Positions 2,479-32,477 of a stretch of DNA of 64,000 nucleotides are shown piece by piece. The stretch's first letter is position 1; the number at the start of each line of letters is the position of its first letter. The stretch is from a bacterium (GTDB lineage: Bacteria > Bdellovibrionota > Bacteriovoracia > Bacteriovoracales > Bacteriovoracaceae). The position numbers and the translations under genes were made by a program. The stretch spans positions 1-64,000 of the forward strand of contig JAUHVL010000009.1 of assembly GCA_030425045.1 (NCBI GenBank). The letters run 5' to 3'. The notes beneath the pieces are model-generated. The model saw only the letters and a program-made list of their open reading frames with translations. It searched no databases and was not told the origin of the DNA.

Positions 2479-3522
2479 ATGAAAGTTTTTTCACTACTCA
2501 TCTTTACTTTGTGTTTTGCAAACTTGTTTGCCGATCAGCTACTCTCTAATCCGCTAGAGCGAAAAGCAGAGCAAACGATCACGGACATTATTGGAAGTGG
2601 TGTGACTAAAATTGGTGATCTTGATCTACTCGTGCTCAGAGAGGAAATAAAAACAATCAATTATCACAATATCGAAGGTGAGATTAGCTCTGTAGCAGGT
2701 GGAAGAAACTCTGCTTATTACTTAGCAGGAGAAGTCTTCTCGAAAACAGACCTTGAACGATATGGACAACAGGCCATTAATTTATTGGCCCTTCACGAGT
2801 CGCTCGGAGCTCTTGGTTATGAAGATAGTAACTATCAAAAGTCGATACTCATCGAGATTTTTAAAGATTTACCTCAAGGCTTACAAAGTGATTTTTTAAA
2901 AAATCAGCTTACTCAGCAAGTATTTGATGAAAAACATCTTAACTACAATGATAATGGCGGCGCCACTGGTATTGGAGGTGGTGGAGATATTGCTACTGCC
3001 TGGTTTAAGTATCAAGTATTAAATTATTTAAAAATTACGGGAACAATGACTCCTTTTGAACTTCTCGTTTTTAGCCATATTAGATTTGAGCCTCATAACT
3101 CTAAGCCAGATAAAAAAACGGCCGTCATCATTCCTCTCACCGCAGAGTGTGGACATAATGAGATCGTTTTACAAGAGTTAAGAAAAGCTAGATCTTATTC
3201 TCATATTATCCCTTCTGTTTTAGTCCCCGTTGATTATCACAAAATGAGTAGCCAAAGATTTTGGGGAATGGTTACAGATGTCGGTAACTTCTTTCATGTT
3301 TATTTTAGAAATAGAAATATTACAACGGATTTTATTCCGATGAGAAGTGGTTATCAAAGACTTGCCCATTGTCATGGTACAAATAATACTTTTGTGATTC
3401 ATGAAAGTATAAAAAACAATATCACGTTTAAGAATTCTAATACCCTTAAGGATTTTATATCAGAATATAATTTTCAATGTTTAAAGGAAACTGGTCATGA
3501 AGCAAGAATTAGTACAAACTGA
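2479..3522 (+). CDS. secreted Gly-rich protein with degenerate HE motif, second paralog
   Basis: The product is 347 aa with a signal peptide ending near residue 18 (LCFANLFA). It is a tandem paralog of the 1260 gene: HESLGALGYEDSNYQKS at 106-122 and GGATGIGGGGD near residue 155 match. The HExxH pattern is incomplete (HESLG), so zinc protease activity is doubtful. Its 3' end overlaps the start of the TIGR02147 regulator at 3497 by 26 bases, so the two are almost certainly translated from one mRNA. Confidence 0.72.
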   Translation: MKVFSLLIFTLCFANLFADQLLSNPLERKAEQTITDIIGSGVTKIGDLDLLVLREEIKTINYHNIEGEISSVAGGRNSAYYLAGEVFSKTDLERYGQQAINLLALHESLGALGYEDSNYQKSILIEIFKDLPQGLQSDFLKNQLTQQVFDEKHLNYNDNGGATGIGGGGDIATAWFKYQVLNYLKITGTMTPFELLVFSHIRFEPHNSKPDKKTAVIIPLTAECGHNEIVLQELRKARSYSHIIPSVLVPVDYHKMSSQRFWGMVTDVGNFFHVYFRNRNITTDFIPMRSGYQRLAHCHGTNNTFVIHESIKNNITFKNSNTLKDFISEYNFQCLKETGHEARISTN

Positions 3523-4285
3523 GCGCATACTTTCAATCATTGAAAAGTATCTCACCAGAAAGAAAAATAATAATTCGTCATACTCTAATCGAGCATTAGC
3601 AAGAGACCTCAATTTATCACCTTCTTTTGTCAGTGATATCTTAAAAGGAAAAAAGCAGCTTCCCTATAAACATGTCGACTCTGTTGTTGGCGTATTAGAT
3701 ATTGACCAATCTGATACCGCTGATTTAAAACTTGCTTATACTCCTGAGGAGTATATTGCTCCGACTCACAAGAAAGTAGCAAAGAAAAAAATAAAAAAAC
3801 ATTGGGTTCTCGGTTCAAGAGCACAAATGAAGATCCTTTCTAAATGGTATTATGTCTCCATGTTAGATCTCATCACATGCCCTAGCTTTGATGGTGATTT
3901 CGCCAATGCACTCGGTATTACCAATGAAGAAGCAAACGAAGCCGTTAACTTTCTAGAAGAAGAAGGTCTGGTTGTTCTAAATGATGGCAAGTATGTAAAG
4001 TCGAGCCTTAAACTCCATTTTAACTCTAAAGAAAGTAAAAAAGAATTTAGACATTATCATAGTCGCCTCTTGGATAAATCAAAAGAAGAGCTTTTAAAAA
4101 CTGAGCAAGAGGATTTTGAAAAAAGACTGATCATTAGTTATTCCGTGGCCATGAATAGTAAGAAAAAAGACTATTTTAAAAAGCGTCTAGCAGACCTTAT
4201 GCAAGAAATGGCCGACGAAATGAGTGAGGGTGAATGTGATCAGGTCTATCACCTTGGGTTACAATTCTATCCACTGAGCAAATAA
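3497..4285 (+). CDS. TIGR02147/DUF4423-type transcriptional regulator
   Basis: The product is 262 aa. Residues about 20-65 form a helix-turn-helix (NRALARDLNLSPSFVSDILKG). A winged-helix-like middle follows (ITNEEANEAVNFLEEEGLV). The end has the family signature: FRHYHSRLL, a long acidic helix and a terminal LGLQFYPLSK. TIGR02147 proteins are predicted DNA-binding regulators of unknown ligand. AAAGGAAA lies upstream of the chosen ATG. The gene overlaps the secreted protein gene upstream, suggesting that it controls or senses that product. A second regulator of this family lies at 26344, also next to a secreted protein with an HE motif. Confidence 0.85.
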   Translation: MKQELVQTERILSIIEKYLTRKKNNNSSYSNRALARDLNLSPSFVSDILKGKKQLPYKHVDSVVGVLDIDQSDTADLKLAYTPEEYIAPTHKKVAKKKIKKHWVLGSRAQMKILSKWYYVSMLDLITCPSFDGDFANALGITNEEANEAVNFLEEEGLVVLNDGKYVKSSLKLHFNSKESKKEFRHYHSRLLDKSKEELLKTEQEDFEKRLIISYSVAMNSKKKDYFKKRLADLMQEMADEMSEGECDQVYHLGLQFYPLSK

Positions 4286-17742: not shown

Positions 17743-19038
17743 TCAAAAAAAGATTCGTGCTCTTTTTTCTATTCCCTCAAGAATAATCTCTAAGGTTTTC
17801 TGATTTAAGTGAGTATCTAATTCTTCTTTAGTAAAAGATAATGCCAAATAACTCTTTCTAATACCTTCTAGAATTTCTTCAAACTTACTTTCAATGATTC
17901 CACATTTTTTGGCCGTTTCTAAATAATGCCTTTTTGCGATTTTTGAAAAACGATAATGTCCACTTTCACCGACTCCCATAGCAAGCTTCATTTTATTCAC
18001 GGATCGCCCTTCTGATTTAACTAAAAAATAACCACTCATTACGTCGTAAAATGGTGTTAAGCGAAACCCATCTGCTCCGAGAAATATACTAAAATTTTTG
18101 CCATGGCCGTCAGTTGCATACAATAAGTCAAAAATAATCATTGCTTTAAAAAAATCGAAACGATCATTTTGCTCTTTTGAAGCTTGTAAAAGTTTTGTAA
18201 TCTCAAGGATTCCTGGACCTCCATCACTTTGGTATTTTTGGTAAGGAGAATAGCCTAAGGCCTGGCATAGGTCTTCTTGAGGAATACGAATTAAAAAGTT
18301 TTGACTTTCATTTTTAACCCACCTCCTATCAAATCGCTCTACTACAAGAACTCTTTGATCCTCAAAAACTTCAATTTCACTGTGACATACAGGTAAGCCA
18401 AACTTTTTCATAATGGCCAACGATGCCCATTCGTTATCGACACTATCTTTGAAGTTTATGGACTCTCCAAGGGCCCCAATTGGTGTTTTAATTAGATGAG
18501 TTGTAGGAGTCATCCCCTGAGGTTCATGCCATCCCTTTTTTATTTTTAATAGAGCCGTTTTCTCTTGTGCTCCTGCGACAGAAAGTCGAAATTCACCTTC
18601 CTTCATTCCTAATGGACTACTTGAACTTAACTCTCTAATCCGTTGAGCAATCTCTTTTTCCGAAATTTTTTTATAGTTCATCTCATATTGTTCAAAAGGA
18701 TCTATCTCTTCATGAGAAAAAGATAAGGCACCAACACAGTCTTTTCCAATCACACTCAGCATATCAAATGGACGAATACTCTCTGCTCCAAATTTCGTTG
18801 CCACCGTTTTCTTGATTTCATCATTATCTGGTAGAAGATTATCAAAATAGCGAGATACGATCTCTCCTCGATACATATCTTCTTGTAATGGCATTGAATG
18901 AGAAATAGCGAACCCCTCTTCAAGCCACTCGCTTTCATAGCGAAAGCTGATCGCACCACTACTTTCTTTTTTTAAAAAGCCAACAAGTACTCCATTTAAT
19001 GAAACATATAATGTTTGAGACTTTGTTTTACGATTCAT
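17743..19038 (-). CDS. hipA: HipA-family Ser/Thr kinase toxin
   Basis: The product is 431 aa, close to E. coli HipA (440). The N-terminal HipA_N region and the kinase core are complete: SVAGAQEK with the autophosphorylated Ser153, VERFDR, TDGHGKN with catalytic Asp310 and Asn314, and FYDV with metal-binding Asp332. HipA phosphorylates glutamyl-tRNA synthetase in E. coli and causes growth arrest and persistence; the target here is not known. The start overlaps hipB by 11 bases, the usual antitoxin-first order. No damage is visible, so the module should work. Confidence 0.93.
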   Translation of the reverse strand: MNRKTKSQTLYVSLNGVLVGFLKKESSGAISFRYESEWLEEGFAISHSMPLQEDMYRGEIVSRYFDNLLPDNDEIKKTVATKFGAESIRPFDMLSVIGKDCVGALSFSHEEIDPFEQYEMNYKKISEKEIAQRIRELSSSSPLGMKEGEFRLSVAGAQEKTALLKIKKGWHEPQGMTPTTHLIKTPIGALGESINFKDSVDNEWASLAIMKKFGLPVCHSEIEVFEDQRVLVVERFDRRWVKNESQNFLIRIPQEDLCQALGYSPYQKYQSDGGPGILEITKLLQASKEQNDRFDFFKAMIIFDLLYATDGHGKNFSIFLGADGFRLTPFYDVMSGYFLVKSEGRSVNKMKLAMGVGESGHYRFSKIAKRHYLETAKKCGIIESKFEEILEGIRKSYLALSFTKEELDTHLNQKTLEIILEGIEKRARIFF

Positions 19039-19321
19039 TCAGAAGCTCAATCATTTTTTTCGCTTTTGATTTTTTATCAACAACTTTTATACTTGAGAGA
19101 TTACTTACCGCTACATTTGCCTTTAATGCCGATACTATTTTAAAAAAATAATCAAGTGTTCCCCCTACACCATTTTCAATATCACTTATTGTTGGCTGAC
19201 GAATGCCCAACATATTGGCCAGCTCAGTTTGGCTAAGTCCTTTACTTTTTCGAAGCCGCTTTAAGGCCACCCCAAGCTTTTTAGTAGTATTAATATTTTC
19301 AATAATAAGTTCTTTTTCCAT
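19028..19321 (-). CDS. hipB: HipB-family antitoxin and repressor
   Basis: The product is 97 aa with a Cro/cI-type HTH (about 18-65): GVALKRLRKSKGLSQTEL followed by IRQPTISDIENG. HipB neutralises HipA and represses the operon by binding palindromic operators. Four such palindromes lie directly upstream (19332-19430), the first overlapping the probable ribosome-binding region. AGAGGAAAAG precedes the ATG. Confidence 0.92.
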   Translation of the reverse strand: MEKELIIENINTTKKLGVALKRLRKSKGLSQTELANMLGIRQPTISDIENGVGGTLDYFFKIVSALKANVAVSNLSSIKVVDKKSKAKKMIELLNES

Positions 19322-19331
19322 CTTTTCCTCT

Positions 19332-19430
19332 TATACGCCTTTCCGTATATAGCTATTATATACGAATATTCGTATATAGCAACATTATACTCATTTCCGT
19401 ATAAATATTCCCTATACGATTTTTAGTATA
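19332..19430 (-). promoter_or_regulatory. four hip operators at exact 27 bp spacing
   Basis: Four 18 bp elements of the form TATACG-N6-CGTATA lie at 19332-19349, 19359-19376, 19386-19403 and 19413-19430, each starting exactly 27 bases after the last. Element 2 lies in a perfect 22 bp palindrome; elements 3 and 4 each deviate in one half-site (TATACT, AGTATA). By analogy with E. coli HipB operators (TATCC-N8-GGATA) they should bind HipB and autoregulate hipBA. Confidence 0.85.
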
Positions 19431-19594: not shown

Positions 19595-20224
19595 ATGAAA
19601 AACTTATTAATCGCACTCGCTCTTTTTTCTGTTTCATCTGTAGTCGTTAATGCAGGTTGGACAGATTATCTTTACGACCGTGACTATGTGATCGGTTACG
19701 CCTTCCCAGGACACAAAGCTCCAACAATTATGACTCACCCAAGAGTATCTTTTATGGGTGGACAATACAGTACAAGTGCACATGAAGCTTGTATTGATGG
19801 AAATGAAATGAGAACACTTTCACCAAAAACTTATTGTTCAGATTGGGAAAAAGAATACGAACTAAAAAAATCTAAAAAAGATGAAGATAAAATGGTTTCT
19901 GTTTGGACCGGAGACTATGTCTGTGCGGCCACAACAACTAAAATCTTAAGAAAGCCATTAAAAGGAACAAAAGAAATCTGTGAAAACAGAGGTCGTATCA
20001 TCGCTAAGTGGAAAAAAGATAACGAAGATGAGAAGTATAACTATGGTGACTACCCAGAATGTACTCTAAAAAGAGTCGTATCTAATAACGCAACAACGAC
20101 TTTTAAAGTATTTGTTGCTGAAAAGGCTAGAAAAAGTGATGACAACTATGAAGATGACTTCAATAAAAACTGGGGTGGATATCCAGTTCTTTCTGAAACG
20201 TGGACCGTTCCAGCTTGTAACTAA
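19595..20224 (+). CDS. secreted Cys-containing protein, paralog of the 25730 product
   Basis: The ATG at 19595 follows AAAGGAAAC and begins a signal peptide (MKNLLIALALFSVSSVVVNA); the frame is open further upstream but without support. The 209 aa protein and the one at 25730-26341 share YVIGYxFxGHxxPxIxTHPR, SF.GGxxSTxAHxxC and LKRxVxxNxxxxFKxFVAEK, so they are paralogs with about eight Cys. A perfect TATAAT lies at 19491-19496 as candidate -10. Function unknown. Confidence 0.75.
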   Translation: MKNLLIALALFSVSSVVVNAGWTDYLYDRDYVIGYAFPGHKAPTIMTHPRVSFMGGQYSTSAHEACIDGNEMRTLSPKTYCSDWEKEYELKKSKKDEDKMVSVWTGDYVCAATTTKILRKPLKGTKEICENRGRIIAKWKKDNEDEKYNYGDYPECTLKRVVSNNATTTFKVFVAEKARKSDDNYEDDFNKNWGGYPVLSETWTVPACN

Positions 20225-23437: not shown

Positions 23438-24802
23438 TTAATTAATAGAACAAGGAATATGTAATTTAATCAAAATTTTATATTTAAAGTTAAACTGCTG
23501 ATCTAAATATTCCTCAATCCTCATAGAGCTTTTATAAATCATCCCTTTCTCAGTAAGTCTGTGTGTTAAAGAAAGTTTTTCACGGTTAAGTGGCTTACCC
23601 AAACCTGAACTTTTATGACAATTCGTTTTGATTGATAAAGCTAGTGATTTTTCAAAAAGTCCACTCTTTCCATTTTTCATCATGGCCTTTAAATAGATGA
23701 GGGCCTCATTCTTATTATCAAAACCATTTTTCTTATTATCAATCTTTAATGGAATCATAACCCAGTTCGCCTTGAGCCTATTCTTACCAAAAACATTACC
23801 TCGCCTTAGTTTTAACTTTAAATGAGGAAGAAACACATTTCCGCTGTTCATTTTACTTAAAATATCATCTTCATTGATAATCTCAATCAAGTCAGAAAAT
23901 GGCGCATATGAGAGTTTTTGTAACTCCATACCCGTATGACCACCGGAAATACCACCGGACATACTACTATCTGAGTGAAGTAAGCCTATCATTACTAATG
24001 CCATTGATATTATAACGGTATTTACCTTTTCCATAATTTTTCCTAATACGTGACTAAAACTCACTCTTACTCCACCATCTTTCATTTCTTTTTTATGTTT
24101 GATGATAACTTCTTGCACTTCAGTAACTTGTTTGTGATGGAGTTTTTTTAACTCACTTAGTCCTTCTTCAGAGAGATCATGAACTTCTAAGTTATAACAT
24201 CCTACAAATTCCCCTGTGTGAACCTTACTATTTAAATTTTCATTAACTTTATTAATGATTCCAAACAACATCTCTCGACTAGGAGTAAAATGAGTATTTT
24301 CTTCATTTATATAATAGGTATTACTCTTCTTTGATATGTACTCTGAAGCAGCTAAAAGATCTGCAACTTTAATCCCTTGGTTTCCATAATTTCTAAAGAT
24401 TTGACCTAGTGAAACTCCTTCACTTTCTGCTAGTGAAATATCTAAGAAGATATTTAAAGCGTTCGCTTCTCCACTCAAAATCTGTGAAAGGTTACTTGAC
24501 AAGAGTTTTTTACGATTTTGTTTTTCAATCTCTTTTTCTATATCAAGAATATGTTTCGACTTTCTATTTTGAATTAGCTTGCAATAGTGTGCTTTTTCAT
24601 CAATGGGTATATTCATCTCTTGCATAATTTTTATGGCAAGATCAATATTGGCAGCTCTTTTTTTATTTTTAACCTGAGAGAGAAAACTAATGGAGGTATC
24701 CCACTTCTTTGCTAATTGCCTCATACTTAAGTTAGACTGATCTAATTTCTTTTCAATTAGTCTTCGAATATATTCCTGTTCAGGACCTTGGATATTCTCC
24801 AT
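23438..24802 (-). CDS. membrane-tethered HTH regulator with an outer domain like its neighbour
   Basis: The product is 454 aa. Residues about 12-58 are a Cro/cI-type HTH (MRQLAKKWDTSISFLSQV). A winged-helix-like middle (about 130-250) recalls TIGR02147 proteins. One membrane segment follows at about 257-275 (VIISMALVMIGLLHS), then a 170-residue outer domain. That domain matches the secreted protein encoded 19 bases upstream: NKNEALIYLKAMMKNGK vs SKSEAVAALKDMVALAKNG, MRIEEYLDQQFNFKY vs YRVEEEFDGNFNQVY, terminal HIPCSIN vs YIPCKY. A one-component ToxR-like sensor is likely. Confidence 0.65.
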   Translation of the reverse strand: MENIQGPEQEYIRRLIEKKLDQSNLSMRQLAKKWDTSISFLSQVKNKKRAANIDLAIKIMQEMNIPIDEKAHYCKLIQNRKSKHILDIEKEIEKQNRKKLLSSNLSQILSGEANALNIFLDISLAESEGVSLGQIFRNYGNQGIKVADLLAASEYISKKSNTYYINEENTHFTPSREMLFGIINKVNENLNSKVHTGEFVGCYNLEVHDLSEEGLSELKKLHHKQVTEVQEVIIKHKKEMKDGGVRVSFSHVLGKIMEKVNTVIISMALVMIGLLHSDSSMSGGISGGHTGMELQKLSYAPFSDLIEIINEDDILSKMNSGNVFLPHLKLKLRRGNVFGKNRLKANWVMIPLKIDNKKNGFDNKNEALIYLKAMMKNGKSGLFEKSLALSIKTNCHKSSGLGKPLNREKLSLTHRLTEKGMIYKSSMRIEEYLDQQFNFKYKILIKLHIPCSIN

Positions 24803-24821
24803 TAGTATAACTCACAACCTC

Positions 24822-25322
24822 TTAGTATTTACAAGGGATATAGATCGTGAACCCAGGAACATAAACTTGATTAAAGTTACCATCAAACTCTTCTTCAACT
24901 CTATATTTACCAGCACCGACATATCCCATATCAATAAGCTCTTCTACAAACTTACCATTTCTACCAAAATTTACTTTCAGAGAATTAGCAGGACTACACG
25001 CTAAGATGACTGCTCTTTTTACCATACCGTAATACTGACCGTTTTTTGCAAGTGCAACCATATCTTTAAGAGCCGCCACAGCTTCAGACTTAGAAGAGTA
25101 ACCCTCTCCACCAAAACGATCACTTTCAACTCTTACGTATTTAAAGTTTACAGTTGATTTTCCTTTTTTATTATTCCAACCCTCAACACGAACACTTAAC
25201 TTACTAGGATAAGAACCCTTTCCTAAAAGGTACTTTGCACTCTTGGCATTATTTACTCTAACAACTCCAGCTTGAGCTGCAGATAACCCAAAAAGCGCTA
25301 CTAATAAAATCATTGTTTTCAT
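24822..25322 (-). CDS. secreted protein related to the sensor domain of the adjacent regulator
   Basis: The ATG at 25322 follows AAGGAGTCACAA and begins a signal peptide (MKTMILLVALFGLSAAQA). The 166 aa product is exported. Its last 90 residues align with the outer domain of the regulator encoded next (SKSEAVAALKDM, YRVEEEFDGNFNQVY, IPCKY). The genes are 19 bases apart and co-directional. The secreted protein may compete for, or be, the ligand or partner of the sensor. Confidence 0.7.
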   Translation of the reverse strand: MKTMILLVALFGLSAAQAGVVRVNNAKSAKYLLGKGSYPSKLSVRVEGWNNKKGKSTVNFKYVRVESDRFGGEGYSSKSEAVAALKDMVALAKNGQYYGMVKRAVILACSPANSLKVNFGRNGKFVEELIDMGYVGAGKYRVEEEFDGNFNQVYVPGFTIYIPCKY

Positions 25323-25442
25323 TTGTGACTCCTTATTTTTCACATCGTTTATAAGAGTCCACAGTTTTTCATAACTGTTTGAAGTTGAGCTTATATTTCC
25401 GTGCTATAGAATCTTTTTTGATCGCTAAAGAAAACGTCAGTT

Positions 25443-25460
25443 TTCATATACTTATATGAA
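25443..25460. promoter_or_regulatory. 18 bp palindrome TTCATATA-N2-TATATGAA
   Basis: Perfect 8 bp inverted repeat with 2 base centre in the divergent promoter region; a probable operator for an HTH regulator, perhaps the one encoded at 23438. Confidence 0.45.
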
Positions 25461-25495
25461 TATGGCGCACATCTTCGACATCGATAGCCTATTTA

Positions 25496-25514
25496 TGATC
25501 ACATCTTGTGATCA
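25496..25514. promoter_or_regulatory. 19 bp palindrome TGATCACA-N3-TGTGATCA
   Basis: Perfect 8 bp inverted repeat with a 3 base centre. The half-sites contain TCACA/TGTGA in the opposite arrangement to a CRP site, so a different regulator is likely. Confidence 0.45.
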
Positions 25515-25638
25515 CATTAATACCAAGAATGGAAAACTGTCTAAAGTTCACTCACTCCATGGAAGTTTTTCACGTTAGATATGGCTAAGTTATTGATTAT
25601 GCTATAATAAAACCACGCTAACTTACTGTTTTTATTAA

Positions 25639-25658
25639 TCACAAGCACGTTCTTGTGA
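25639..25658. promoter_or_regulatory. 20 bp dyad TCACAAG-N6-CTTGTGA
   Basis: Perfect 7 bp inverted repeat with a 6 base centre, about 70-90 bases upstream of the 25730 start. It shares CACA/TGTG half-site letters with the dyad at 25496. Confidence 0.45.
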
Positions 25659-25729
25659 AAAATTCAAGATAAAACAGTGAAATAAATTTGGCAAATGTTT
25701 TTTAGTTTAATATAAAGATTTTGAAAATG

Positions 25730-26341
25730 ATGAAAACTCTATTAACACTTACTCTTCTTTTTCTTTTTAAAACAACGTGGGCCAATCAAAAAGACTGGAC
25801 TCATTTTCTTCATAACCCAAATTATGTCATTGGCTATGGCTTTGCAGGACATGACTATCCCATGATTAAAACACATCCTCGTATTTCTTTTCGAGGTGGT
25901 TCTTTTAGTACAGATGCTCACCAAACATGCCTTGAAGGCGACCGTATTAGAACAATAAATAAGAAGAAACTTTGTCTTCAGTATCGAGATGAAATGGTTT
26001 GGAACGATACAATGGATAAAAAAATCAAAACCGGAAATCGCATATGTGCTCAACCTAAACGTATGGTTTTAACAAGACCAATATCGGGGAAGAAAACAAT
26101 TTGCGAGAAGAGAAAAGATATTATTAAAGCATGGGAAGAAGAAAACCCTAGAGAAAAGTTTAACAAAGAGAGTTTAGCAACTTGTACGCTAAAAAGAGAA
26201 ATTGATGTCAACACGTCAATTAAGTTTAAAATCTTTGTGGCCGAGAAAAGAAATCATAAAAATACTAATAATTATGATAAACGTTGGGGTGGAAAGCCAC
26301 TATTTACACAAATGTGGTCGATTCCTAAATGTGACAGATAA
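25730..26341 (+). CDS. secreted Cys-containing protein, paralog of the 19595 product
   Basis: The 203 aa product (ATG at 25730; ATG 25727 or TTG 25721 also possible) has a signal peptide MKTLLTLTLLFLFKTTWA. It shares YVIGYGFAGH, RISFRGGSFST and a terminal W(S/T)(I/V)P segment with the 19595 protein, with matching Cys positions. Its stop lies 2 bases before the ATG of the TIGR02147 regulator, so this paralog sits in a regulator operon whereas the other stands alone. Confidence 0.72.
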   Translation: MKTLLTLTLLFLFKTTWANQKDWTHFLHNPNYVIGYGFAGHDYPMIKTHPRISFRGGSFSTDAHQTCLEGDRIRTINKKKLCLQYRDEMVWNDTMDKKIKTGNRICAQPKRMVLTRPISGKKTICEKRKDIIKAWEEENPREKFNKESLATCTLKREIDVNTSIKFKIFVAEKRNHKNTNNYDKRWGGKPLFTQMWSIPKCDR

Positions 26342-26343
26342 AA

Positions 26344-27231
26344 ATGGATAAACAAAACAACACAAATATTAAAAAGAAAAACTTAAAGATAACACATCGT
26401 CCTTCTGCTTTTGACTTTAGCTCTATTTCTGAATTTATTGTTGCCATCGGGCTTCCCAACGGTCGCTATAATCATAAAAGTGATAATTTAAAAGAGCTCG
26501 CCTTAAAACTTGGCTATAGATCTCCCAGTACATTAACAATGATCATAAAAGAACAACGTCTTCCCTCCAAAGGCTTTATAAAATCTTTAGCGGATACATT
26601 TAAGTTAAGTGCTAAAGAAAAAAATTATCTCTTTTTACTTTTAGAAAAAAGCAAAAAAGAAATGAAGGGAGAAGATCTTAAAGAAACACTCCTTGGCCTA
26701 AAAAAGTATCGAAATAATGTTCAAGACTATGGCATGGACCTCAATAAATTTGAGGCGATCTCAAATTGGTATTACTCTGCCATCACTCAAATGATTGAGA
26801 TGGATAATTTTATTGAGGATGCAGAATGGGTTTCAAGACAGCTGGTAGGAAAAGTAAAGCCTTCACAGATTAGATTGGCCATTGACCAGATGCTTGATCT
26901 TGGAATCCTTAAAAGAGATAAAAAAAATAAACTAAAGCTAGCTTCTGGTGGATGGCGACTGGTTCAAGACATACCTTCAAGTGCTATTCGAAATTATCAC
27001 TCAGGTTTAATTGAACTGGCCGGAGAAAGTCTTCATAGTGTTGATCCTGAAAGCCGACATATGATGGGACTTACTCTCCCTTTTGATAGTGATCAAATGG
27101 AAGAGGCCAAAGACTTTATTCAAAACTTTATTATGAAATTTAATCGTAAGTTTGCCAATAATAAGGGCGATAAAATAGAACAACTTAATATACAATTTTT
27201 TCCGCTGACAAAAGATGATATGGAACACTGA
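26344..27231 (+). CDS. TIGR02147/DUF4423-type transcriptional regulator
   Basis: The product is 295 aa. An HTH near residues 50-90 (LKELALKLGYRSPSTLTMII) is followed by a winged-helix-like middle (RLAIDQMLDLGILKRD) and the family signature IRNYHSGLIELAGES...LNIQFFPLTKDD. It lies between the secreted paralog gene (2 bases upstream) and the secreted protease gene (8 bases downstream), in one operon. The layout parallels 2479-4285, where a regulator of the same family overlaps a secreted protein gene with a related HE motif. Confidence 0.87.
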   Translation: MDKQNNTNIKKKNLKITHRPSAFDFSSISEFIVAIGLPNGRYNHKSDNLKELALKLGYRSPSTLTMIIKEQRLPSKGFIKSLADTFKLSAKEKNYLFLLLEKSKKEMKGEDLKETLLGLKKYRNNVQDYGMDLNKFEAISNWYYSAITQMIEMDNFIEDAEWVSRQLVGKVKPSQIRLAIDQMLDLGILKRDKKNKLKLASGGWRLVQDIPSSAIRNYHSGLIELAGESLHSVDPESRHMMGLTLPFDSDQMEEAKDFIQNFIMKFNRKFANNKGDKIEQLNIQFFPLTKDDMEH

Positions 27232-27239
27232 GGTAGAGT

Positions 27240-28292
27240 ATGAAAAAAAGCATCATTACAGTAATTGTTTTTTTACTAACATTTAATCTAAATGCTTTTG
27301 ATAATTATGAACACAAAAAACTTTTTGAACGTATCTTAAAAGGTGAATATCAACTGGACTCCATTGATGACTTTAATATATGGGATGACTTTCTCTTTAT
27401 GGATGGAGTTTATGGTGCCTTTAACCCTCTTGAAATTTATGGTTCAGGGGATGGGAATGTTGTTGGTAATGGCGGAGGTATGTCAGAAGGAACCTTTGAA
27501 TATTCATTTCAAATTTTAGGTAGAGTTATTAAAGATTGCTTACAAGATCAGTACTGTCTTGACGAACAACATGAGTATGATCTTTTGAAAAATATTTACA
27601 GTGTCCATCAACAAAATATGACAATGAAAAACTACCTTATTTTTGTTGATGGTGAAGTCCATAAGAGCTTCTTTGATGAAGGCAATGGTCGAGGTCCTAG
27701 AACAGCACTCACAGGGTCTAAATCAATGCTTCCCATTTTTATTAATACTTCTCACCTTTATGATGCTCTTGGAGCACCGAGATGGGATGTCGGTAAATCT
27801 ATTAGTATTCTAGTCCATGAGTTAGGACATCAAGCTGGAAATCCTGACCACCGCTATTTAGATAAGGTTGGTCAAAAGGTCAAACGCTTTCTTGAAGCCG
27901 ATAAAACAACACTAGAAAGCAAAGTAAATGATGAAGTTGTTAGAGTTTGGATGAGAAATGGGCAAAACCCAACAGAACAATTTGAGTTAGGTGTCTTTTG
28001 GGATGGAGAAGAAAAAAATATACGAGATGAGGTTCTCAATAATATTAAATGTCCACGAGAGTTCGACCTAGATAAGTTTTCTTTTTCAAACCTACATTGG
28101 GATCACCTTAGATATGACGATCAAGACGGTTATGTGGTTCCTATAACCTTATGGATGAATTTGAGATGTATTAATCACTCGAAAGGCCTCGTGGCAGAAT
28201 ATGAAAACCTTGAGTACAAAATTCTTCTTTCAAGAGGGAAATCACAAAAAGACAAAGCATTATCGGTTAAGTATTTTATCGAAAGACTCTAA
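27240..28292 (+). CDS. secreted zinc protease-like protein with HELGH site
   Basis: The product is 350 aa with signal peptide to about residue 19. A Gly-rich stretch GDGNVVGNGGG (71-80) precedes a zinc motif HELGHQAGNPDHRY: His193, Glu194, His197, with Asp203/His204 as candidate third ligand (HExxHxxGxxD/H, metzincin-like). The 1260 and 2479 proteins share parts of this motif but lack His197. It is third in the operon with the TIGR02147 regulator and ends 5 bases from the convergent lipoprotein gene. Confidence 0.72.
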   Translation: MKKSIITVIVFLLTFNLNAFDNYEHKKLFERILKGEYQLDSIDDFNIWDDFLFMDGVYGAFNPLEIYGSGDGNVVGNGGGMSEGTFEYSFQILGRVIKDCLQDQYCLDEQHEYDLLKNIYSVHQQNMTMKNYLIFVDGEVHKSFFDEGNGRGPRTALTGSKSMLPIFINTSHLYDALGAPRWDVGKSISILVHELGHQAGNPDHRYLDKVGQKVKRFLEADKTTLESKVNDEVVRVWMRNGQNPTEQFELGVFWDGEEKNIRDEVLNNIKCPREFDLDKFSFSNLHWDHLRYDDQDGYVVPITLWMNLRCINHSKGLVAEYENLEYKILLSRGKSQKDKALSVKYFIERL

Positions 28293-31448: not shown

Positions 31449-32477
31449 CTAGAGAATCTTTTTAGAATCCAGTGCAATCTTATCGTAGACAGATTTATCA
31501 ACTTTGTAGACCCAAGCCCCTTTTTCGAGGTTAGTCCTTTGAGCTTTCTCTTGAGCTAGAATAGTATCTTCAATTTTTTGTAATTCCTCTTTTCCATCAT
31601 TTTGACCAACGACGAACTGAGTTTGAGGCTCTTCAAACAACGCTGATAGTTTTAGAAAATGCTCCTGATCACTTTTTGCAAAACTTAAACTATAAACAAG
31701 TTTATTTTTTAGTTTAATCTTAATATTTTTATCAAAGTGTAATTCTTTTACCTTTTTATCTACTGGAGTAAAGAATTCTTTAAATTTTATACTTGAAAAG
31801 TTCCCAGGGATATCTTGTAATTTATCTTTGTTGGATTTTTTTATTTCTTCAGAATCAATAATAAAACTCTCATCCTTTTTGATTATTTCAAAATTTTTAT
31901 CTGCCATCACAGAAATCTTTTCAATCTCTTCTTTTTTGACCTCTAACAAAACTGTATTGACGAAGTCTTTATATGACGAGTCTAACCACAGACTATCTTT
32001 TGATACATAAACATCACTTTTTCCCTCTTTAAATAAATAATTTCCTTTACCTTTTAAAGATTTTCCCACTCTAAACGCTATTGTTTTTTTCCCATCATTA
32101 TCAAAGAGCTCTACTAGATACTTTCTTTTTTCTTTATCTAGCTCATATTTACTTAATTCTTTTTCTGAAGCATTCGACGCTACCTTCTCTTTCACTTGAA
32201 TGCTCGCCAATTTGTAGATTAAGTCATTTACTTTTTCAGTTGAGGCTGGATATGACTTATAATTTTCTAGTAAGAACCTATTTGAGTCTCGAGTTAATGT
32301 AATATTTTTATCTTTACCAAAACTTAATCTAATTTTTTGAATTTTATTAATATCTAGTCCTTTTATATAATCGCTTCCTGCAAGTAAGTCAGTACCTCTT
32401 TTGTTTTCGTTCATAAAAACAAAAAGAGAGATGACAAAAAGTATAACCGTTGTTAACGAAAGGGTTTTTAGTTTCAT
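31449..32477 (-). CDS. DUF4340 membrane-anchored protein of a Gld-type ABC system
   Basis: The product is 342 aa with one N-terminal membrane anchor (SLTTVILFVISLFVFM) and a beta-rich outer part with repeats typical of DUF4340 (YLVELFDNDGK...FRVGKSLKGKGNYLF...VYVSKDSLW). DUF4340 genes follow GldG-like genes in ABC clusters of many bacteria. The start overlaps the GldG-like gene by 4 bases. It is the last gene of the leftward operon. Confidence 0.8.
   Translation of the reverse strand: MKLKTLSLTTVILFVISLFVFMNENKRGTDLLAGSDYIKGLDINKIQKIRLSFGKDKNITLTRDSNRFLLENYKSYPASTEKVNDLIYKLASIQVKEKVASNASEKELSKYELDKEKRKYLVELFDNDGKKTIAFRVGKSLKGKGNYLFKEGKSDVYVSKDSLWLDSSYKDFVNTVLLEVKKEEIEKISVMADKNFEIIKKDESFIIDSEEIKKSNKDKLQDIPGNFSSIKFKEFFTPVDKKVKELHFDKNIKIKLKNKLVYSLSFAKSDQEHFLKLSALFEEPQTQFVVGQNDGKEELQKIEDTILAQEKAQRTNLEKGAWVYKVDKSVYDKIALDSKKIL

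Follow-up and report, generated by a model that had tools for sequence, protein, structure and literature searches.

A fused membrane-type regulator and its exported homologue in Bdellovibrionota, with a proposed kinship to cassettes of regulators and exported proteins

The question of why a transcription regulator would carry, as its own C-terminal outer domain, a likeness of the secreted protein encoded beside it is raised by a gene pair, here called R and S, in a member of the Bacteriovoracaceae (Bdellovibrionota; assembly GCA_030425045.1). The pair lies within positions 1 to 64,000 of contig JAUHVL010000009.1, and this whole stretch of 64,000 nucleotides is referred to below as the window. 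An earlier note, made from the sequence alone, had read the two proteins as a sensor and a secreted protein of the same fold that would pair with each other or compete for a common ligand, possibly in the surveillance of exported or prey-derived molecules.

The gene pair and the ancestry of its exported domains

R encodes a fused regulator of 454 amino acids (23438..24802) and S an exported protein of 166 amino acids (24822..25322) of the outer-domain type that we call OD1; both are on the minus strand, as are all of their parts listed below, and S is the upstream gene, read the same way and separated from R by 19 bases, so that the ORF calls agree with the coordinates and the gap given in the earlier note. 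The outline of R, drawn from its ORF, Pfam, about 20 relatives and an AlphaFold model, starts with an HTH_3 domain (residues 16-69, 24596..24757; PF01381, 28 bits against a cut-off of 23), followed by a predicted winged-helix domain (residues 97-173, 24284..24514), a hydrophobic segment (about residues 262-275, 23978..24019), the Gly motif GGISGGHTG (residues 283-291, 23930..23956), which comes directly after a degenerate cleavage-type site, SMS, and an OD1 outer domain with two conserved cysteines (residues 298-454, 23441..23911), recognized from its homology to S and from the AlphaFold model. The description of R as an HTH, a single hydrophobic segment and a C-terminal domain was thus borne out by the Pfam HTH_3 match and the Kyte-Doolittle scan; the segment aligns with the AxA-ending segments of relatives of R, and could be either a membrane helix or the core of a former signal peptide. 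S consists of a signal peptide (25269-25322), with the cleavage site after AQA and before G judged by eye, and a mature part (24825-25268), and has no Pfam match.

A local alignment (BLOSUM62) of the R outer domain with S scored 90, far above the level of shuffled sequences (35±5 at full length, 31±5 for the domains alone), which is a z of 10-12 and a score reached by 0 of 2000 shuffles; comparison with shuffled sequences had been named beforehand as the check that might overturn the resemblance. The stretches quoted earlier and the IPC ending all fall on this single alignment, in which overall identity is about 21-23%. A profile HMM built from the outer domains of 12 regulators of other genomes, with R and S left out, found S among 669 ORFs with an E-value of 5.5e-5 and the secreted neighbour of the closest relative of R (locus L035) with an E-value of 5.6e-4. 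Profile-profile comparison of regulator OD1 with secreted OD1 gave a probability of 99%, or of 95% with S and its L035 counterpart as the only secreted sequences, and the control comparison with a second outer-domain type, OD2, gave 0.2%, the two types being not detectably related. That two short alpha/beta domains should look alike by chance, for which the low overall identity might be cited, is so improbable in the face of the shuffles, the profile from other genomes, the hhalign probability of 99% and the recurrence of the pair at L035 that we treat the possibility as ruled out, the shuffles and the independent profile being decisive. On these sequence comparisons, the shared ancestry of the R outer domain and S can be regarded as confirmed.

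The predicted folds, compared as single chains, do not differ in any major respect. AlphaFold gave mature S a pLDDT of 82 and a pTM of 0.70, and R a pLDDT of 67 and a pTM of 0.43, with values in its outer domain ranging from below 50 to about 85. The order of elements is H-E-E-H-H-H-E-E in S and H-(bridges only)-E-H-H-H-E-E in the R outer domain, the same except for one strand of S that appears only as bridges in R. The R model was made without secreted rows in its input and the S model with regulator rows, and the two are not fully independent because of the latter. Searches of the PDB with S gave nothing convincing (best Foldseek match E 0.009 at a TM of 0.20; VIA Z of 4.1 or less). The cytoplasmic half of R is predicted to consist of the HTH and the winged helix, and the latter matches the ArsR chain 6j05_A (VIA Z 10.6, rmsd 1.8 over 76 residues).

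Relatives of R and a signal-peptidase-type site

About 20 full-length relatives of R (376-500 amino acids) came out of a search through 369 Bdellovibrionota genomes, those with named records coming from Bacteriovoracia, Halobacteriovorax, Bdellovibrionales and the like; no relatives were found in IMG/VR viral contigs. They have in common the HTH and a middle/winged-helix domain, then a hydrophobic segment at around residue 240-305, and beyond it a Gly-rich motif and the outer domain; in an alignment of 18 sequences two glycines of the motif are invariant while the surrounding region is variable. Outer domains in the fused regulators are of three types: OD1, as in R; OD2, which is longer and has five or more cysteines; and a short OD3.

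The best relative, at L035, is 48% identical to R and is the only fused relative with an OD1 secreted neighbour like that of R, so the search for the same layout elsewhere in Bdellovibrionota, as the earlier note had proposed, turned up a second genome with the pair. The L035 outer domain scores 92 against its own neighbour (z 11-14), and in both genomes the within-pair scores (90 and 92) are higher than the cross-pair scores (79 and 66). Identity between R and its L035 counterpart falls from 72% in the HTH and 61% in the middle domain to 23% in the outer domain, S and the L035 secreted protein being 47% identical; for three pairs of OD2-type regulators the corresponding values are 86%, 70% and 26%. 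Judged by these identities, the outer domain is the fastest-evolving part of R-type proteins.

OD1 is also found as a standalone exported protein, in S, in its L035 counterpart and in proteins of two further genomes (G033 and G262). A chorismate-synthase-like match in G033 (E 0.009) was discarded as a false positive, and a weak OD1 match in the window (31449-32477, E 0.008), inside a long exported protein, appears fortuitous. Standalone OD2 is present in 72 of 291 genomes, about a quarter, a few of these matches being fused forms; fused and exported OD2 match each other with a profile probability of 96-98%, and in the cases tested the exported proteins had no Pfam or NCBIfam model above cut-off.

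Three OD3 regulators (L050, L051 and L053) are overlapped by an upstream gene for an exported protein of 102-108 amino acids. Their fused domains showed no sequence match to these small neighbours; by eye, both have a helix-Cys-strand-strand-Cys arrangement. An OD2 exported protein is encoded downstream of the OD3 regulators, at a distance of about 220 nt in L050 and L051 and beyond an intervening transposase-like ORF in L053. Locus L056 (6018-7279, genome G117) appears to be a decayed OD1 regulator locus, with an OD1 remnant of 84 amino acids upstream of a regulator of 290 amino acids that has an internal deletion between the HTH and the hydrophobic segment.

A membrane-like segment was detected in 23 of 24 R-type matches, and in none of the regulators tested from two soluble families described below, B (16) and TIGR02147 (25). 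In 22 of 23 R-type proteins it ends in a site of signal-peptidase type, [A/S/T/V]xA, with a flexible Gly-rich stretch behind it in most cases; the strict pattern is found in 19 proteins, against 4.9±1.8 in shuffled sequences, where 0 of 5000 reached as high a count. R is the sole exception, with HSDSSMS before GG and no alanine at -1. Because AxA is kept in 22 of 23 proteins, and because the domain is a separate gene product beside the soluble regulators, the outer domain in most of the family is probably a released secreted protein and not a tethered receptor. The R copy, having lost the alanine at -1, may stay tethered.

Cassettes of regulators and exported proteins

Exported OD2 genes adjoin HTH regulators in 13 of 20 further loci (L145-L164), the regulator being within 250 nt. 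When the one locus chosen with prior knowledge is taken out of these 20 from the hit list, 12 of the 19 fresh loci have an adjacent regulator and 7 do not. Since there are only about 10 TIGR02147 genes in the whole genome that holds R, adjacency by chance would be of the order of 1%, and we claim no exact probability because related genomes are non-independent samples. Two families of soluble regulators occur at OD2 loci, TIGR02147/DUF4423 and the family termed B, to which, in the cases tested, neither Pfam nor NCBIfam gave a name; overall, OD2 proteins are coupled repeatedly to HTH regulators of three kinds.

The usual cassette order is an exported OD protein, the regulator and a second exported protein, the last two genes overlapping or at most 20 nt apart. 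The second exported protein has a GDIVGNGGGLxEQNF-like Gly-rich motif in 17 of 22 distinct loci with TIGR02147 regulators. After B genes, from which the next exported gene is separated by an overlap of up to 19 nt or by no more than 9 nt, it has a GGxxGG-like N-terminus together with OD2 in 6 of 10 distinct loci; one of these loci, with its B regulator and Gly-OD2 protein, is in the genome of R itself, on contig C35 (L165). Exported proteins of some 320-350 amino acids with the motif G(S/G)D(I/V)(V/I)GNGGG(L/I)xEQNF were seen behind TIGR02147 regulators at L134, L136, L138, L157, L166 and at 27240-28292 in the window.

B regulators are homologous to the cytoplasmic half of R: the middle region of R with the HTH excluded matches them with an hhalign probability of 97%, and whole cytoplasmic parts of R-type and B regulators match with 98% over 212 columns. 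The hydrophobic segment, Gly motif and outer domain of R-type proteins are the counterpart of the next gene in B cassettes, which encodes a Gly-rich exported protein with an OD; B cassettes have two genes and OD2, whereas R is one chain with OD1. The TIGR02147/DUF4423 regulators are part of closely similar cassettes that include OD2-type exported proteins, and their N-terminal HTH is recognizably related to that of R by a local TIGR02147 profile, for the HTH part only. R has no match to Pfam DUF4423 or NCBIfam TIGR02147 at E-values up to 1, an assignment of its middle domain to this family was rejected (hhalign 5%), and R differs from these regulators in having a membrane segment and an exported domain.

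One TIGR02147 cassette adjoins S (25721-28292, plus strand). Its first gene encodes A206, an exported OD2-type protein (25721..26341), its second, 2 nt further on, a TIGR02147/DUF4423 regulator of 295 amino acids (26344..27231; TIGR02147 at 123.8 bits against a cut-off of 50, with a DUF4423 match in Pfam), and its third an exported protein of 350 amino acids with the motif GSGDGNVVGNGGGMSEG (27240..28292), whose position and motif are repeated in 16 further TIGR02147 cassettes. This last protein has no Pfam or NCBIfam match and contains a metallopeptidase-like HELGHQ. A paralogue of A206, the exported OD2-type protein B209, is encoded at 19595..20224 on the plus strand (local score 406 between the two). 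Pairwise comparison of A206 and B209 with OD2-type fused domains was not significant, and their link to OD2 rests on a chain of profiles, which they join through an intermediate group (hhalign 97%), and on OD2 genome-search matches with E-values of 4e-7 for A206 and 5e-8 for B209.

The S and A206 cassettes are divergent and share an upstream region (25323..25720, no strand assigned), in which a repeat scan picked out a palindrome, TGATCACA-N3-TGTGATCA at 25496-25514, as a candidate operator; a second palindrome, ATTAATCACAAGCAC/GTTCTTGTGAAAAAT at 25634-25663, also lies between S and A206 and is a possible operator. Elsewhere in the window, three copies of a TATACG...CGTATA palindrome at 27-nt spacing (19331-19430) precede a gene pair for HipB-like (19028-19321) and HipA-like (17743-19038) proteins and are likely HipB operators. 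At 2479-4285, a TIGR02147 regulator gene (3497-4285) overlaps an upstream gene for an exported protein of 347 amino acids with the Gly-rich stretch GGATGIGGGGDIA, possibly a further cassette of the regulator/exported-protein kind.

Readings of the pair

The reading we favour, and hold to be probable, is that R is a soluble XRE/winged-helix regulator fused to an exported Gly-rich protein, that R and S represent a fused form of the cassettes of exported OD, regulator and exported Gly-rich protein found across Bdellovibrionota, and that these cassettes control themselves through their exported domains. S would be the homologous exported protein, encoded first in the operon of R. On membrane insertion of the hydrophobic segment, the HTH half would stay inside and the outer domain would come to lie outside; for most relatives, cleavage by signal peptidase I behind AxA would free the outer domain beside the exported partner and leave the regulator anchored, and in R, with its degenerate site, the outer domain may remain attached. 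The regulator would most likely act on the cassette that encodes it and take its extracytoplasmic input from the exported domains, and S and the outer domain may bind the same partner or each other. Homology, fusion, cassette layout and fast outer-domain divergence are established at the level of sequence, and the recurrent order, coupling and fusion indicate that regulator and exported proteins act together. Counting against a fused cassette are the small number of same-type neighbour pairs, clear for 2 of about 20 fused regulators, the many fused loci with no recognized exported neighbour, the absence of the AxA site from R itself, the 7 fresh OD2 loci of 19 without a regulator beside them, and the OD1 exported genes of G033 and G262, which have no adjacent regulator.

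R could instead be a tethered receptor with a homologous soluble co-factor, in the manner of ToxR/ToxS or VtrA/VtrC, in which a mixed dimer or a shared ligand alters DNA binding by the HTH. In those co-component systems, too, each regulator chain has a DNA-binding domain, one membrane segment and an outer domain, the exported or periplasmic partner is encoded next door and the outer domains, which form an obligate heterodimer, evolve fast (PMC9214523). The single operon and shared predicted fold of R and S, the rapid divergence of the outer domains, the higher within-pair scores and the absence from R of the AxA site kept by its relatives all speak for such an arrangement, which is a possibility above all for R itself because that site has been lost. 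The retention of AxA in 22 of 23 R-type proteins speaks against it, as does the absence of a membrane segment from soluble regulators with separate exported partners, and these AxA sites set the relatives of R apart from ToxRS and VtrAC. There are further differences: the co-component regulators have a CadC/ToxR-type HTH (PMC9214523), whereas R has HTH_3 and no Trans_reg_C match in Pfam; their partner gene is directly downstream in an overlapping operon, whereas S is upstream; and S bears a signal peptide that can be cleaved off and shares ancestry with the outer domain of R, whereas the folds of VtrA and VtrC differ. The co-component partner has a lipocalin-like fold; the fold predicted for S is alpha/beta. 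We consider a co-receptor of this kind unlikely. Of the interpretation in the earlier note, shared ancestry, shared predicted fold and recurrence stand, and the tethered receptor is weakened for most of the family.

Lower still in probability is a switch gated by signal peptidase, in which the outer domain would shield the site for as long as neither S nor a ligand is bound, and cleavage followed by intramembrane proteolysis would free the HTH half. RsiV-type anti-sigma factors provide the precedent, with a cytoplasmic regulatory domain, a membrane segment, a signal-peptidase-type site immediately after it and an outer domain (PMC6066255), the same succession as in the relatives of R. Protection in RsiV, however, needs amphipathic helices right after the site (PMC6066255), where R has, by eye, a Gly-rich motif, and gating is less likely because glycines replace the protective helix. 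R moreover lacks the canonical site that ends the membrane segment of RsiV, and has HTH_3 in place of an anti-sigma domain.

We give as little credence to an evolutionary by-product, in which an exported gene was duplicated and fused to the upstream regulator, leaving S and the outer domain functionally unlinked and S a mere regulated target. Fusion of adjacent genes does account for the anatomy, and most fused loci have no same-type neighbour, but some 20 genomes have kept the fused form, its glycines invariant and its cleavage-type site preserved, and OD1 and OD2 both occur fused and unfused, repeatedly beside regulators.

The fused-cassette reading has to be placed among known regulators. 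R has the same one-component layout of DNA-binding domain, membrane segment and extracytoplasmic domain as transmembrane transcription regulators in general (PMC10269533), and differs from them in its apparent origin from a soluble regulator and an exported gene and in an outer domain that is encoded elsewhere as a secreted protein in its own right. Neither Bdellovibrio nor XRE nor HTH_3 turned up in a text search of that paper, and literature searches on TIGR02147, DUF4423 and such cassettes yielded no description. From their sequences, R and S appear to be a new variant among one-component membrane regulators, in an apparently undescribed family of regulator/exported-protein cassettes.

More broadly, and as a tentative proposal that we regard as possible rather than probable, Bdellovibrionota may have an undescribed class of export-coupled cassettes in which the regulator is made with, or as a single chain with, a Gly-rich exported protein plus an exported paralogue. 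Signal peptidase would split the fused chain in most species, and the rapidly diverging exported domains would feed information on a state outside the cytoplasm (partner, kin or prey) back to transcription of the cassette itself; the idea of prey surveillance is a guess based on taxonomy only. In R a regulator and an exported domain share a single chain, which argues strongly that the unfused neighbours act in concert. For many hypothetical genes of predatory bacteria this leads to a concrete question, that of what these regulators sense via exported partners with outer domains that diverge far faster than the rest.
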